Positions 32,084 to 42,926 of a stretch of DNA of 64,000 nt are shown piece after piece (the first letter of the stretch is position 1; each line of letters begins with the position of its first letter). The stretch covers positions 62,001 through 126,000 of the forward strand of contig JAHBVV010000002.1 in assembly GCA_019637335.1 (NCBI GenBank), written 5' to 3'. This stretch comes from Candidatus Hydrogenedentota bacterium. GTDB lineage: Bacteria; Hydrogenedentota; Hydrogenedentia; Hydrogenedentales; JAEUWI01. The translations under genes and the position numbers were made by a program. Under the pieces are notes generated by a model. That model was given only the letters and a program-made list of their open reading frames with translations. It was not told the origin of the DNA and made no database searches.

Positions 32084-33073
32084 CTACCGCTTCACGCGCA
32101 CCCCGACCGGCATGCACGCGCCCAAGCGGTCCCCATGCGCCAGGTGCTCCTCCAAAATGATCCGGCCCACCGCCACCGTGTGCGATCCCCCCGCCTCCCC
32201 GCCGTGCGCGTGGCAAATCACAATACGGTCGCCCGCCTCATCCGCCGCCGTGTCCGCGAAATCCAGTATCTCCACCCAATCCCCCGCCATCGATCCGTCC
32301 AGTCGGTACAGCCCGCGCACCGCCACCCGATCGCCCTCCCGAAGGTGGTCCGGCGTTCCCCGCGCGGCGAGGCGATCCCCCGGCATGAAAATGGAAGCCC
32401 CGGAAAAGTCCACCGGGTGTTCGCTCGCGTCCGCCGCCAGCACAAAGGCCAGCCGCGACCGATCGAGCGCCGTGATCCGGCCCGTGGCCCGCACTTCGGA
32501 GGTGTGTCCGCGAAGCGACAGCGCCAGCGCCGGATCGAACGCGTACCCGGCCCCCTCCAGCGGCATGACCGGCGCGCCGCCAAAATCGAGCACGAGCATG
32601 ACCGGAGAATCCGGATGCGCAAAGAACGGCGAATCGATCGGAAACACGCCTCCCCCCGGAACCGCCAGCGGCACGGGATGGTCCGGATCCGCCGACGGTA
32701 TCAACACCGCCGATCCCACCGTGATTGCCGCGCCGAGAAACTCGCCCTCTGGCGGCGTCACGCTCGCCGCAAGCTCTGAAGCCAGACCGTATTCCACGAG
32801 ATCCAGCGTAAGCGGCTCGTCGCGCAGCACAAGATCCGGCGTGCCTGGCGCCCCGAAGAGGAGCACCCGGTCAATCGTCACCACCAGCCCCAGAATCTCC
32901 CCGGTAGCAAGTTCGATCCCCTTCGCGCCATCCAGGGGCGCCTCGCCGCGCGTCACCAGCAGCGACAGGCGCGCGGGCCCGCTCGGCGGCGGGCATCCCG
33001 GCGCGGCGGCGAACACGGCCAGGCAAACCAGGGCCAGCGCGGGGCGTAACATCCCGCTCAAGCGCGCCGTCAT
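32084..33073 (-). CDS. Lipoprotein of unknown function with CHxxGG...HGDxxGxC tail
   Basis: 329 residues. The signal peptide has an AAPGC lipobox. The N-terminal half (GPARLSLLVTRGEAPLDGAKGIELATGEILGLVVTIDRVLL) resembles the beta-sheet lead of DUF4382-like surface lipoproteins. Residues 200-275 have repeated short beta units with RVAVRGLY and GDWVEIL. The C-terminal ICHAHGG...HTVAVGRIILEEHLAHGDRLGAC is a small Cys/His motif seen at the ends of assorted exported proteins. No enzymatic residues recognised. Confidence 0.65.
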   Translation of the reverse strand: MTARLSGMLRPALALVCLAVFAAAPGCPPPSGPARLSLLVTRGEAPLDGAKGIELATGEILGLVVTIDRVLLFGAPGTPDLVLRDEPLTLDLVEYGLASELAASVTPPEGEFLGAAITVGSAVLIPSADPDHPVPLAVPGGGVFPIDSPFFAHPDSPVMLVLDFGGAPVMPLEGAGYAFDPALALSLRGHTSEVRATGRITALDRSRLAFVLAADASEHPVDFSGASIFMPGDRLAARGTPDHLREGDRVAVRGLYRLDGSMAGDWVEILDFADTAADEAGDRIVICHAHGGEAGGSHTVAVGRIILEEHLAHGDRLGACMPVGVRVKR

Positions 33074-38416: not shown

Positions 38417-38521
38417 CTCAGCCTGATTGCGGAAGCTTGTGCCGGCTCGCCCGCTTGTCTATCCCCTCCCCGGCACGGGAGAAGATGCGGGGCCGCCAGC
38501 GCCCGCGAAAGGCCGTGTTTG

Positions 38522-40453
38522 ATGAGTGGTAACAACCACCACACTGCGCTCAAAGAAAGCAAGACCTTCGGGCCCGTGCCCGATCTCGAACGCCACCTCC
38601 CCTCCGAATGGTGGCGCACCCTGTTCAATGCCGTCTACCTCAAGACCGACGGCGACGTCGTCGAGAATTCCGCCAGCACCGAGAGCGACGTCGATTTGCT
38701 CGTTGCCTCCGCCGATCTCCGCCCGGAAGACGCCATCCTCGATCTCTGCTGCGGCCAGGGGCGCCACGCCCTGGAACTCGCCCGGCGCGGCTTCCAGCAC
38801 GTGACCGGCCTCGACCGCTCCCGCTACCTCGTACGCCTCGCGCGCAAGCGCAACAAGCGGCGCCGCCTTTCGGCCACCTTTCGCGAGGGCGACGCCCGCA
38901 AGCTCCGCCTGGCCCCCGAGTCCTTCGATTGCGTCTCCCTCATGGGCAACTCCTTCGGCTACTTCGAGCGCGCGGAAGACGATCTCGCGGTGCTCACCTC
39001 GGTCTGGCGCGTGCTGAAGCCGGGTGGGCGCGTCGTGCTCGATGTCGTCGACGGCGAGTGGATGCGCCAGAAATACGAGCCGCGCTCCTGGGAGTGGATC
39101 GACGAAAACCACTTCGTCTGCCGCGAGCGCGCCCTCGCCCAGGACGGGCAGCGCCTCATCTCCCGCGAAATCGTCACGCACGCCGAGCGCGGCGTCATCG
39201 CCGACCAGTTCTACGCCGAGCGCCTCTACACCTACCCGCAGCTCGTGGAACTGCTCGAGCGCGCCGGCTTCAAGGACGTCCGCCAGGGCGCCGACCCGAC
39301 CACACACTCCAGCCGCCAGCAGGACCTCGGCATGCTCTCCCGCCGGATCTGCCTGGTGGCCTCCAAACCCGTCTACGTCGGACGCCGCCCGCGCCGTGGC
39401 CCGCTCTATCCCAATGTCACCGTGCTGCTCGGCGATCCCTCCCAGCCCGACGCCGTAAAGCGCGAGGGCGTGTTCTCCACCGAGGATATCGAAACCATCG
39501 AGCGCATGCGCGCGGCCCTGGGCGCCCTGAAGGACTACGAATTTCGCTACTGGACCGACCACCACGGACTCTTCCGGATGCTCCAGGAGGATCGGCCCGA
39601 TTTCGTGCTCAACCTCTGCGACGAGGGATTTCACAATGACCCCTTCAAGGAGATGCACGTGGCCGCCGCCCTCGAGATGTTCGGCGTGCCCTACAGCGGC
39701 GCCGCGCCCCGCGCGCTTGGCCTATGCTATGACAAGGCCCTCGTCCGCGCCGTCGCCCATTCCCTGGATATTCCGGTTCCCCTCGAGTCCTTCTTTGCGG
39801 CCGACGATCAAATGGCCACCCTGCCCTCCGTCTTTCCCGCGCTTGTGAAGCCCAATCTCGGCGACAGCAGCCAGGGCATCACGCAGGATGCCGTCGTGCA
39901 CAACAAGGAGCAGTTCATCGCCTACTGGGAGCGGCTGCGCTCGGAATTCCCGGATCGCCCCCTGCTCGTGCAGGAATTTCTCAGCGGAAATGAATATAGC
40001 GTGGGCGTCATCGGTAATCCCGGTAGCGACTTTCTCGTGTTGCCCGTGCTGGAGGTGGATTACTCGGGGCTCGACCCCGCGCTGCCGCGCATCCTCGGCT
40101 ACGAGTCGAAGTGGCAGCCGGATTCGCCCTACTGGAACGACATACGCTACAAGGTGGCCTCCCTCGATGCGGCGGCGAAGCGACAGATCGTCGATAACTC
40201 GCTGGTGCTGTTCGAACGGCTGGGTTGCCGGGACTACGCCCGCTTCGATTTCCGGGCCGACGCCAACGGGGTCATTAAGCTGCTCGAGGCCAATCCGAAC
40301 CCGGGTTGGTGTTGGGATGGTAAATTGAATATAATGGCGGGCTACGCAGACTATACATACGCGGATGTATTGCGTATAATAATCGAAACCGCGCAGCTCC
40401 GGTACGGAGCGGCGCCCGCCCTTGATGTCTCGCTCCCCGCGGGAGCCAACTGA
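38522..40453 (+). CDS. Methyltransferase + D-Ala-D-Ala ligase-like ATP-grasp fusion
   Basis: 643 residues from ATG 38522. Residues 30-285 are a class I SAM methyltransferase: motif I ILDLCCGQGRHALELARRG, VTGLDRSRYLV, FREGDARKL and WRVLKPGGRVVLD. Residues 300-630 are an ATP-grasp ligase with VTVLLGDPSQPDAVK, YSGAAPRALGLCYDKALVR, ALVKPNLGDSSQGI, LLVQEFLSGNEYSVGVIG, FDFRAD and LLEANPNPGW. The ligase resembles D-Ala-D-Ala ligases, but a genuine ddl exists at 30 kb. The substrate is probably a different amino acid or peptide that is also methylated. No stop or frameshift at the junction. Confidence 0.83.
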   Translation: MSGNNHHTALKESKTFGPVPDLERHLPSEWWRTLFNAVYLKTDGDVVENSASTESDVDLLVASADLRPEDAILDLCCGQGRHALELARRGFQHVTGLDRSRYLVRLARKRNKRRRLSATFREGDARKLRLAPESFDCVSLMGNSFGYFERAEDDLAVLTSVWRVLKPGGRVVLDVVDGEWMRQKYEPRSWEWIDENHFVCRERALAQDGQRLISREIVTHAERGVIADQFYAERLYTYPQLVELLERAGFKDVRQGADPTTHSSRQQDLGMLSRRICLVASKPVYVGRRPRRGPLYPNVTVLLGDPSQPDAVKREGVFSTEDIETIERMRAALGALKDYEFRYWTDHHGLFRMLQEDRPDFVLNLCDEGFHNDPFKEMHVAAALEMFGVPYSGAAPRALGLCYDKALVRAVAHSLDIPVPLESFFAADDQMATLPSVFPALVKPNLGDSSQGITQDAVVHNKEQFIAYWERLRSEFPDRPLLVQEFLSGNEYSVGVIGNPGSDFLVLPVLEVDYSGLDPALPRILGYESKWQPDSPYWNDIRYKVASLDAAAKRQIVDNSLVLFERLGCRDYARFDFRADANGVIKLLEANPNPGWCWDGKLNIMAGYADYTYADVLRIIIETAQLRYGAAPALDVSLPAGAN

Positions 40454-40588
40454 ATCACGTGCCCACATGGCGCCCCAAGTGCGCCTTTACCGTTTCTTTA
40501 CCCTATGTTTGCCATGTGTAGAAAGCGTGGCGCTACCATCTGCGGTTCATCGCCCGAGCGGGCGGTGCCGGAAAGGAGGATTTATACG

Positions 40589-41035
40589 TTGGCTAAAGGA
40601 AGACACCTTCTCATCGATTGCACCGGGGTGCCCCCGGAGGTATGCGGCGACGACAAGCTCGTCCTGAAGGCTATGGCCACGGCGGCGGAACGCGCCGGCG
40701 CGACCGTGATCTCTCAGGTTCGCTACCATTTTGGGCACAACTCCGCTCCTGGTTTTACCGCCATGGTCCTGCTGGACGAGAGCCATTGCTCCGCGCACGC
40801 CTATTCGGACGAAGGCCTGCTCGCCCTGGATATTTTTACCTGCGGTAATACCGATCCCCGTGATGTACTGGCGTATATGCAGGAGATGCTCGACCTGGGT
40901 GATATCACCGTTCAGCACTGTGAACGGTTCCATACGCCCGGCGAGCGCTTCAGAGCGCCTGAGATTGCTGTCTCCCTCAAATCCTTCCGAACCGAAGCCC
41001 TCGAGCTCGCGGCCAACGGGAATGGGCATGACTGA
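40589..41035 (+). CDS. speD: S-adenosylmethionine decarboxylase proenzyme (SpeH type)
   Basis: 148 residues from TTG 40589, chosen because AAAGGAGGA (40572-40580) sits eight bases upstream; an ATG further upstream lacks this. Pyruvoyl-type enzyme: LDESHCSAHAYSDEG contains the self-cleavage Glu-Ser pair (Ser 65), with His 70 and Cys 85 (DIFTCG) at the spacing of the small bacterial enzyme of known structure. It supplies decarboxylated SAM for polyamine synthesis. Its stop lies inside the start of a deoxyhypusine-synthase-like gene. No spermidine synthase (speE) is visible in the window. Confidence 0.92.
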   Translation: MAKGRHLLIDCTGVPPEVCGDDKLVLKAMATAAERAGATVISQVRYHFGHNSAPGFTAMVLLDESHCSAHAYSDEGLLALDIFTCGNTDPRDVLAYMQEMLDLGDITVQHCERFHTPGERFRAPEIAVSLKSFRTEALELAANGNGHD

Positions 41036-42089
41036 TCACCGATCGTTTCACGACGGTTGCCAGGACGGCCTCAAAGCACTGCACAGTCTCGACCTGGACC
41101 AGGTCCACACTTTTAAGGGCCTGGTCCAGGCGATGGGCCGCACCGCATTCGGCGGGCGGCGCCTCGGCGAGGCGCTGGAGGTTCTCACCGAAATGGCCCG
41201 CACCCCGGGCTGTTTCAAGGTGATGAGCATCTCCGGCGCCATGACCGTCGCCAAGCAGGGCAAGATCGTCTCCGACTTGATCGACCGCGGCGTGGTGGAC
41301 GCGATTGTGGCCACCGGCGCCCTCGTGACCCACGGCCTCACCGAATCCTTTGGCAATGTCCACTACGCCGTCCCGCACGACGCCAACGACGAGGAACTCT
41401 TCGACAAGGGGTACAACCGTATCTACGATACCCTGGAAATGGAAGCCAACCTCAACGATCTCGCCGAAATTATCGCCGGGATCATGGACCGCCAGCAGCG
41501 ATCCGAGCCCTGGTGCTCCAGCGCCATCTGCCGCGCCATCGGCGAAGAACTCGACCGGCGCGACGAAGGGCCCGGCATCCTGCGCAGCGCCTACAGGCGC
41601 GGCGTGCCCGTATACATCCCCGCCTTTACCGACAGCGAGATGGGGCTCGACCTCGCCACGTGGGCCATGGCCCGCAAGCGCGGAACCGATGGCGAAGCCG
41701 CCGACTGCTTCAACCACGTGCCCTCCTACAATCCCTTTCTCGACCTGCAGGACTACGCCCAGCGCGCCATCGCCGCCGATACCCTCGGTATCTTCACCAT
41801 CGGCGGCGGCGTCCCACGCAACTGGGCGCAGCAAGTCGGCCCCTACGCCGACATCACCGCGCGGCGCCTCGGCATCTCCCTCCCGGAGATCAAATTCAAA
41901 TACGCCGTGCGGATCTGTCCCGAGCCCGATCACTGGGGCGGCCTCTCCGGCTGCTCCTACAGCGAAGGCGTCAGCTGGGGCAAGTTCATTCCGCAGTCCG
42001 AAGGCGGGCGCCACTCCGAAGTACACGCCGACGCCACCACGGTGCTCCCGCTGCTGGCCAAGGCGCTCTTCGAGAACCTCGAAAGCTGA
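41028..42089 (+). CDS. Deoxyhypusine synthase-like protein
   Basis: 353 residues from ATG 41028 (or 41022), overlapping the speD stop by eight bases. Family landmarks are SGAMTVAKQGKIVSDLIDRGVVDAIVATGALVTHGLTES, PVYIPAFTDSEMG, LGIFTIGGGVPRNWAQQVGPY, then SEGVSWGKFIP, where the Lys matches the active-site Lys of eukaryotic deoxyhypusine synthase. Bacteria lack eIF5A, so this paralogue probably transfers an aminobutyl group to a small amine or an unknown protein. The tight coupling to speD supports polyamine chemistry. A strong terminator follows. Confidence 0.88.
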   Translation: MTDHRSFHDGCQDGLKALHSLDLDQVHTFKGLVQAMGRTAFGGRRLGEALEVLTEMARTPGCFKVMSISGAMTVAKQGKIVSDLIDRGVVDAIVATGALVTHGLTESFGNVHYAVPHDANDEELFDKGYNRIYDTLEMEANLNDLAEIIAGIMDRQQRSEPWCSSAICRAIGEELDRRDEGPGILRSAYRRGVPVYIPAFTDSEMGLDLATWAMARKRGTDGEAADCFNHVPSYNPFLDLQDYAQRAIAADTLGIFTIGGGVPRNWAQQVGPYADITARRLGISLPEIKFKYAVRICPEPDHWGGLSGCSYSEGVSWGKFIPQSEGGRHSEVHADATTVLPLLAKALFENLES

Positions 42090-42122: not shown

Positions 42123-42159
42123 AACGCCGCGCGCTGCATCGGCAACGCGCGGCGTTTTT
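42123..42159 (+). terminator. Rho-independent terminator after speD operon
   Basis: An 11-bp stem (AACGCCGCGCG, 42123-42133; CGCGCGGCGTT, 42146-42156) with a 12-base loop is followed by further T residues (T run 42155-42159). It is 33 bp after the deoxyhypusine-synthase-like stop. Confidence 0.85.
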
Positions 42160-42179: not shown

Positions 42180-42926
42180 CTACGCCGTAAAGCCCCCGTC
42201 GATATCCAGCACCGTCCCCGTCACAAAGGACGCCTCCGGACTGGCCAGAAACAACACCCCCGCCGCGATCTCCTCGGGACGCCCGTAACGGCCCAGCGCG
42301 CTCACCGAACGCTGCGCAACCGCGCTCGGGCCGTCCGCCGGATTCATCTCCGTGTCCACCGATCCCGGCTGCAGCACATTGATCGTGATCCCGCGGGACG
42401 CCAGATCACGCGCCGCCCCCTTCGTGAACCCGACCACCGCCGCCTTGGTCGCCGCGTAGTCCGCCAGGCCCGGAAACGCCGCCCGGCTCGCCAGCGCCGA
42501 TCCGATCGTGATGATCCGGCCGCCCTCGCCCATGTGCAGCGCCGCCGCGCGGATCGCCGCCGTCACGCCGGTGTAGTTGATCGCCAACTGGCGGTCGAGC
42601 GCGTCCAGGTCAGTGCCCGGATCGCCCACCGCGCCCCCCAGGAACACGCCCGCATTGTTCACGAGAATGTCCAGCCGCCCGAAATGCGCCACGGCCGCCT
42701 CCACCAGCCCGACCGCCTGTTCGCGGTCCGCCAGGTCCGCCTGGAACGCCTTCGCGCGCACCCCGCCCGACGACAGCTCCGCCGCCAGCGCTTCCGCACG
42801 CTCCGCCGAACCGCCATAGCCCAGCGCCACATCCGCCCCGGCCCCCGCCAGCGCCCGCGCAATGGCCGCGCCAATCCCGCGCGACGCCCCGGTCACCAGC
42901 GCCACTTTTCCCGTCAGATTCGTCAT
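42180..42926 (-). CDS. Short-chain dehydrogenase/reductase (FabG-like)
   Basis: 248 residues, the full SDR length. NAD(P) motif TGASRGIG (12-19), structural LVNNAG (89-93), catalytic Ser 143, Tyr 157 and Lys 161 (YAATK), and the C-terminal PGSVDTEMN and FLASPEASFVTGTVLDIDGGF, all typical of 3-oxoacyl-ACP reductase-like enzymes. No fatty acid synthesis gene is adjacent, so a stand-alone alcohol dehydrogenase of unknown substrate is as likely. It lies 42 bp after wrbA on the same strand, possibly as a redox operon. Confidence 0.87.
   Translation of the reverse strand: MTNLTGKVALVTGASRGIGAAIARALAGAGADVALGYGGSAERAEALAAELSSGGVRAKAFQADLADREQAVGLVEAAVAHFGRLDILVNNAGVFLGGAVGDPGTDLDALDRQLAINYTGVTAAIRAAALHMGEGGRIITIGSALASRAAFPGLADYAATKAAVVGFTKGAARDLASRGITINVLQPGSVDTEMNPADGPSAVAQRSVSALGRYGRPEEIAAGVLFLASPEASFVTGTVLDIDGGFTA

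Follow-up and report, generated by a model that had tools for sequence, protein, structure and literature searches.

The speD gene and the adjoining gene of a deoxyhypusine synthase (DHS) homolog probably form a SpeDA-SpeY homospermidine operon, serving a route from arginine through agmatine and putrescine to homospermidine. The genes and their linkage, the key residues, the gene content of the genome and the co-occurrence are observed here, whereas what each enzyme acts on, what is formed, and in which sequence the steps follow are inferred. SpeDA would self-cleave at Ser65 to produce a pyruvoyl group and then decarboxylate L-arginine to agmatine, which would be converted via N-carbamoylputrescine to putrescine by AguA and AguB, whose genes lie in another part of the genome. 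The DHS homolog would oxidize one putrescine with NAD, bind its aminobutyl group to Lys319 in imine form, and pass it to a second putrescine to yield sym-homospermidine. The donor and acceptor are likely putrescine, possibly agmatine.

Results

Organization and conservation of the gene pair

The window, meaning the whole 64,000-nucleotide stretch of DNA that was analyzed, corresponds to bases 62001-126000 of contig C2 from a genome of 7.16 Mb in 55 contigs (96% complete). The eight-base overlap between speD and the gene of the DHS homolog, which formed part of the original prediction, follows directly from the end of the first gene and the start of the second (Table 1). The next gene after speY is a convergent SDR gene at 42180-42926. 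A terminator-like hairpin in the intervening region has a 15-pair stem on the minus strand and a 5-pair stem with a T-run on the plus strand; it is a weak candidate, since the pattern scan gave 3 hairpins where 1.6 were expected by chance.

Table 1. Features of the speDA-speY region, in window coordinates
Feature	Position	Strand	Remarks
Shine-Dalgarno-like run AAAGGAGG	40572..40579	+	9 bases 5' of the TTG start
speDA, SpeD homolog, probable pyruvoyl-dependent arginine decarboxylase	40589..41035	+	148 aa, TTG start
Ser65 codon within ESH, predicted self-cleavage/pyruvoyl serine	40781..40783	+	aligned with the ESH of T. maritima
Ser73 codon, at the proline position of true SAM decarboxylases	40805..40807	+	T. 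maritima alignment
speY-like DHS homolog, probable homospermidine synthase	41028..42089	+	353 aa, ATG start
Lys319 codon, equivalent of human DHS catalytic Lys329	41982..41984	+	alignments
Terminator-like hairpin in the intergenic region of speY and the convergent SDR gene	42123..42156		pattern scan, weak

Conservation of the speD-DHS neighborhood had been proposed as a check on the functional coupling of the pair. Close orthologs of the DHS homolog (59-66% identity) were found in 22 relatives among 60 genomes, the window's own being counted in the 60. Of the 22 fetched loci, 21 have speD as the immediate upstream neighbor in the same orientation, which argues that the pairing is not due to chance. 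The single exception is genome G007, where speD adjoins an agmatinase gene on another contig. The overlap itself is a peculiarity of the window and is not conserved among the 21 relatives' loci: the two genes are separated by 16-33 bases in 15 of them and by 185-204 bases in three, and candidate speY starts (GTG or TTG) fall within speD in another three. Upstream of speD, at 38519-40453, the window encodes a fusion protein in which a methyltransferase domain is joined to an ATP-grasp domain of the D-Ala-D-Ala-ligase-like type. This protein was considered as a pathway partner and rejected; in the compared loci, which extend about 1-1.5 kb upstream of speD, it is a neighbor of speD in just two genomes, that of the window and G005 (L017, L062).

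Assignment of SpeD as a probable arginine decarboxylase

The window SpeD matches the Pfam family PF02675 with an E-value of 9e-25. Alignment with the T. maritima protein indicates that the processing residues required of a SpeDA are all present, with Ser65, His70, and Cys85 of the window protein corresponding to S63, H68, and C83. In the sections of PMC10407285 available to us, many SpeD homologs from genomes lacking SpeE are described as pyruvoyl-dependent decarboxylases acting on arginine (SpeDA) or ornithine (SpeDC), and one proline is reported to be completely conserved in the true S-adenosylmethionine decarboxylases (AdoMetDC) tested and not in SpeDA. We equated this residue with the only proline of the T. 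maritima central motif. In the window protein it is replaced by Ser73 (HAYSDEG vs. HTWPEYG), as expected for a SpeDA, and the position holds proline in none of the 32 window-type SpeD proteins. Proline is present in the T. maritima SpeD, in six SpeD proteins from viral contigs, and in the second SpeD of genome G044, which reads HTWPEHG. The window SpeD thus has neither the proline nor, among the domains searched, the partner SpeE that would mark a true AdoMetDC. The original prediction had named it a SAM decarboxylase; judged by the published proline criterion, it would instead be an arginine decarboxylase.

Genome G044 provides a natural control. It carries the window-type pair and, in one stretch of contig C197 (L037, L095), a conventional set comprising a pyruvoyl-type arginine decarboxylase (PF01862), the proline-bearing SpeD, SpeE, and an arginase-family gene.

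A DHS subfamily below the NCBIfam cut-offs

The product of the second gene matches PF01916 (Pfam, E 1.5e-73). The DHS active-site lysine region had been claimed to be kept, and indeed the segment SEGVSWGKF aligns with the Lys329 region of human DHS; Lys319 is invariant in 11 orthologs, and Lys319, Trp317, Glu313, the GGG loop, and Asp335 are all kept in the alignment with human and archaeal DHS. Human His288, which we take to be a marker site of true deoxyhypusine synthase, is retained in the archaeal DHSs aligned; the window protein has Asn265 in its place, as do two other bacterial subfamilies, and by this mark it is not a true deoxyhypusine synthase. The original prediction had pointed out that bacteria have no eIF5A, which agrees with established knowledge. 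DHS family membership and the catalytic lysine, in a genome with no SpeE-type spermidine synthase among the domains searched, are the traits expected of SpeY.

The window protein exceeds no NCBIfam cut-off. Among the DHS models (TIGR00321, NF002006, and others) the best score was obtained with NF002006 (229.3 bits vs. a cut-off of 434), and the protein reached 146.1 bits with the homospermidine model NF001980 (cut-off 450) and 172 bits with the caldomycin-synthase model NF002699 (cut-off 500). The NF001980 cut-off is passed by the DHS homolog at L030 (G018), a relative without SpeD, and that of NF002699 by the DHS homolog at L114 and by Trichormus and Sphingomonas plasmid proteins. An AF2 model, used for the fold only (mean pLDDT 70.5), was closest to DHS chains, with a TM-score of about 0.6 and an rmsd near 9. 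Pocket residues were considered as a means of discriminating between putrescine and agmatine and were not decisive: human Asp316 corresponds to Leu306 in the window protein and is also Leu in the archaeal DHS 7cmc, and human Asp243 aligns ambiguously, with Leu207 in MAFFT or with Asp208 in phmmer. As a side observation, the distant DHS homologs at L035 and L036 (G027, G034) read NEKITWDK where human DHS reads DEAVSWGK, and a distant DHS homolog also appears as weak matches in the SpeD-containing genomes G001, G031, and G037.

Polyamine genes of the window genome

The window genome contains one SpeD and one DHS homolog. No SpeE-type gene was found in it by searches with PF01564 and PF17284. The genome lacks PF17284, the N-terminal domain of SpeE, and PF01564 matches only within proteins of 861 and 811 aa; the former matches a model of fused MFS/spermidine-synthase proteins and the latter matches SpeE models weakly. 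The earlier remark that no spermidine synthase is seen therefore extends to the whole genome as far as it was searched. The broader proposal of a polyamine route, for which aminobutyl transfer from spermidine to another amine had been suggested as an example, survives in part: a dedicated route is supported, and spermidine is unlikely as the aminobutyl donor because the genome yielded no SpeE-type spermidine synthase.

PF02784 occurs once, in a protein closest to LysA and just under the LysA cut-off. No agmatinase was detected in the window genome. An agmatine deiminase (PF04371, E 2e-110) adjoins an N-carbamoylputrescine amidase, giving an aguA-aguB pair, with both proteins below their NCBIfam cut-offs (AguA, 254.5 vs. 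381.8 bits; AguB, 314.4 vs. 410.25 bits). The genome thus combines an agmatine-to-putrescine route with the absence of detected SpeE, the setting expected for SpeDA.

Co-occurrence across related genomes

Two genome sets were used, one of 60 genomes, including that of the window, for the co-occurrence tally, and one of 68 genomes of the most likely source phylum, Hydrogenedentota, for the leader and PF17284 searches. SpeD is encoded in 28 of the 60 genomes, and all 28 also carry a DHS homolog, which is close in 23 and distant in five (E 1.7e-4 to 1.2e-8). Among these SpeD genomes, 20 have only PF04371, seven have only PF00491, none has both, and one, G049 (82% complete), has neither; the corresponding numbers for the 32 genomes without SpeD are 11 with PF04371, 11 with PF00491, and 10 with neither. 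The association between SpeD and any agmatine route (Fisher p 0.007, 60 genomes) is moderate, since 22 of the 32 genomes without SpeD also have such a route. Over the whole set, agmatine deiminase (PF04371) is present in 31 genomes and agmatinase (PF00491) in 18, and the two never occur together. The close-ortholog genomes have 15 PF04371 loci, of which 14 show AguB next to AguA and the fifteenth (L092) is located at a contig edge, and the coordinates give the gene order speD-speY-speB in six of the seven PF00491-containing SpeD genomes. This replacement without overlap of AguA/AguB and SpeB fits a shared pool of free putrescine, and is the reason why we favor putrescine as the substrate of the DHS homolog. 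PF17284 was found in a single genome of the 68, namely G044.

A candidate leader RNA upstream of speD in relatives

A conserved speD leader, GCCGnCCCCAAGC...GCGUAAGGCGGC with an anti-Shine-Dalgarno sequence in the spacer, is present in 11 of the 68 phylum genomes and at loci L105 and L114. It was first seen upstream of speD in several families as GCCGnCCCCAAGC-spacer-GCGTAAGGCGG, and the form GCCGnCCCCAAGC-spacer-GCGUAAGGCGG is found at L039, L046, L056, L059, L060, L061, L063, L105, L112, and L114 and their duplicates. An exact-pattern scan of a genome collection with a stated size of 257 billion bases returned 14 matches, and in 12 of these a speD start follows at a distance of 28-49 bases. 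Nine matches duplicate elements known from the earlier loci, and three of the five new ones precede speD; several of the matching contigs share their elements with relatives of the window, among them its own genus (L118, L056). The two matches not preceding speD were rejected as speD leaders. L116, a contig labeled Alphaproteobacteria in which no speD was found, was taken as a chance match. L110, which is followed by no detectable SpeD protein and resembles L114 over about 50 bases, was left out of the leader count and kept in the loop/Shine-Dalgarno comparison.

A covariance model searched against the 68 phylum genomes was positive in 11, with one copy each at E 9.5e-8 or better and a window-type speD at all 11 loci; one further, weak match (E 0.011) has no speD. 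Weak copies may have been lost, because filtering was tightened in this search and 80 candidates were scored for each genome. Rfam 15 gave no match in 19 leader-bearing or related loci and the sub-window, apart from tRNAs and chance-level ones, and no such leader RNA was described among the papers listed in searches of the open-access PMC literature.

The spacer CCUCC can pair with the Shine-Dalgarno GGAGG. At L105, L110, and L114 a C-run stands opposite a G-run with matching flanks (GCCCCCC:GGGGGGC, GACCCCC:GGGGGUC, and UCCCCCC:GGGGGGA, respectively). Over 11 elements, whose sequences are related, helices between each spacer and its own Shine-Dalgarno averaged 5.64 bp, compared to 4.68 bp for swapped combinations (permutation p 0.009), and duplex energies differed likewise (p 0.007); taken singly, two of the 11 fell below p 0.05 against shuffled spacers. 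The core helix showed no covariation, with seven of its eight pairs invariant and one containing a single G-U; in the scan-found elements this invariance is forced by the search pattern. Across the 11 elements the spacer can be as short as 21 or as long as 30 bases, which would speak against a fixed dimeric DNA operator as an alternative to an RNA.

We tentatively suggest that the relatives' leader may represent a new riboswitch class that senses arginine, agmatine, putrescine, or homospermidine, and in which pairing between loop and Shine-Dalgarno would switch translation from the conserved UUG. The leader is apparently undescribed and is the most novel lead of this analysis. The motif is absent from the window speD, as judged by a covariance search of the 64 kb. 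One match at 32761-32821 (19.7 bits, E 0.037) was discarded: it is weak, is distant from speD, and overlaps two open frames, of 329 and 439 aa. The sequence preceding the window speD folds no better than many of its shuffles (z -1.26). At L105 the leader and speD are followed on the same strand by an arginase-family gene and a DHS homolog.

Discussion

Alternative readings of the pair

The substrate of the DHS homolog is the point on which a competing explanation bears most directly. The enzyme could join two agmatine molecules, with AguA/AguB or SpeB then removing the guanidino groups to give homospermidine. Agmatine is the probable product of the gene directly upstream, the window protein scores slightly higher with NF002699 (172 bits) than with NF001980 (146 bits), and at L114, which has a related leader and speD, the DHS homolog is above the NF002699 cut-off; the window protein itself is far under that cut-off of 500 bits. 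We know of no action of AguA/AguB on such a coupled product, and the free exchange between AguA/AguB and SpeB fits a putrescine pool better. Although the Thermus enzyme CdmS couples agmatine in this manner, according to the accessible part of PMC10981699, we consider coupling of agmatine unlikely for the window protein.

Two further readings concern SpeD. It exceeds the cut-off of TIGR03330, the NCBIfam SAM decarboxylase model (84.2 vs. 75.65 bits), although this model may not distinguish SpeDA from SAM decarboxylase, and the two distant PF01564 matches in the window genome could be read as pointing to an aminopropyltransferase. Yet a true SAM decarboxylase with an unrecognized or missing partner is quite improbable given the loss of the proline in all 32 window-type proteins and the restriction of PF17284 to G044, where a separate proline-bearing SpeD stands beside it. 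Direct formation of putrescine by SpeD as an ornithine decarboxylase (SpeDC) is very improbable, as an agmatine-consuming route is kept in 27 of the 28 SpeD genomes; in PMC10407285, SpeDC is characterized by four diagnostic residues (Gln, Thr, Phe, and Tyr), and its genes, too, cluster with homospermidine genes.

Relation to known systems

With SpeDA and SpeY as the preferred assignment, the gene pair is most likely of a known kind, that of Gimesia maris, occurring here in another phylum with a DHS subfamily that no NCBIfam model assigns. As described in the sections of PMC10407285 available to us, the gene of a SpeD-derived arginine decarboxylase, whose activity was assayed, lies immediately upstream of a DHS-like speY in G. 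maris, and aguA and aguB are clustered elsewhere in the genome. This likeness concerns the published gene arrangement; the eight-base overlap belongs to the window and not to G. maris. The window protein shares with SpeY (NF001980) the DHS fold family, a bacterial origin, the catalytic lysine, and Asn at the position of human His288, but differs in scoring below the cut-off of that model, which the L030 relative passes. It resembles CdmS (NF002699) in being a DHS homolog in an arginine/agmatine route to homospermidine (PMC10981699, accessible part), and again differs in falling below the cut-off of the model.

These results would add an uncultured phylum to the range of the SpeDA-SpeY route. 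In this phylum SpeD is found in 28 of 60 genomes and a SpeE domain in one of 68, and the two agmatine-to-putrescine routes substitute for one another, never occurring together. The window DHS subfamily is directly assayable. The nearest comparison for the relatives' leader is the spermidine riboswitch, a SAM-I variant that the available part of PMC10853860 describes as the first convincing polyamine riboswitch. Both are leader RNAs before polyamine genes; in contrast, the relatives' speD leaders that were searched have no Rfam match, SAM-I included, and consist of a short two-strand core with the anti-Shine-Dalgarno in the spacer. If this leader were a second class of polyamine riboswitch, it would be of wide interest.

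A second hairpin leader was seen in one family, with the core UUUGUGCCGC-loop-GCGGGC located about 25-110 bases upstream of speD in seven sequences (L038, L040, L043, L047, L052, L053, and L057); judged by eye, it is absent at the window speD. Its lower stem covaries, with two-sided changes in six of 15 predicted pairs. All 32 window-type speD genes (the window's and 31 related) begin with TTG behind a Shine-Dalgarno-like run, and in 30 of them, the exceptions being the window and L055, an out-of-frame ATG lies five bases before the TTG. The retention of this weak start in every one of these genes may itself be regulatory.
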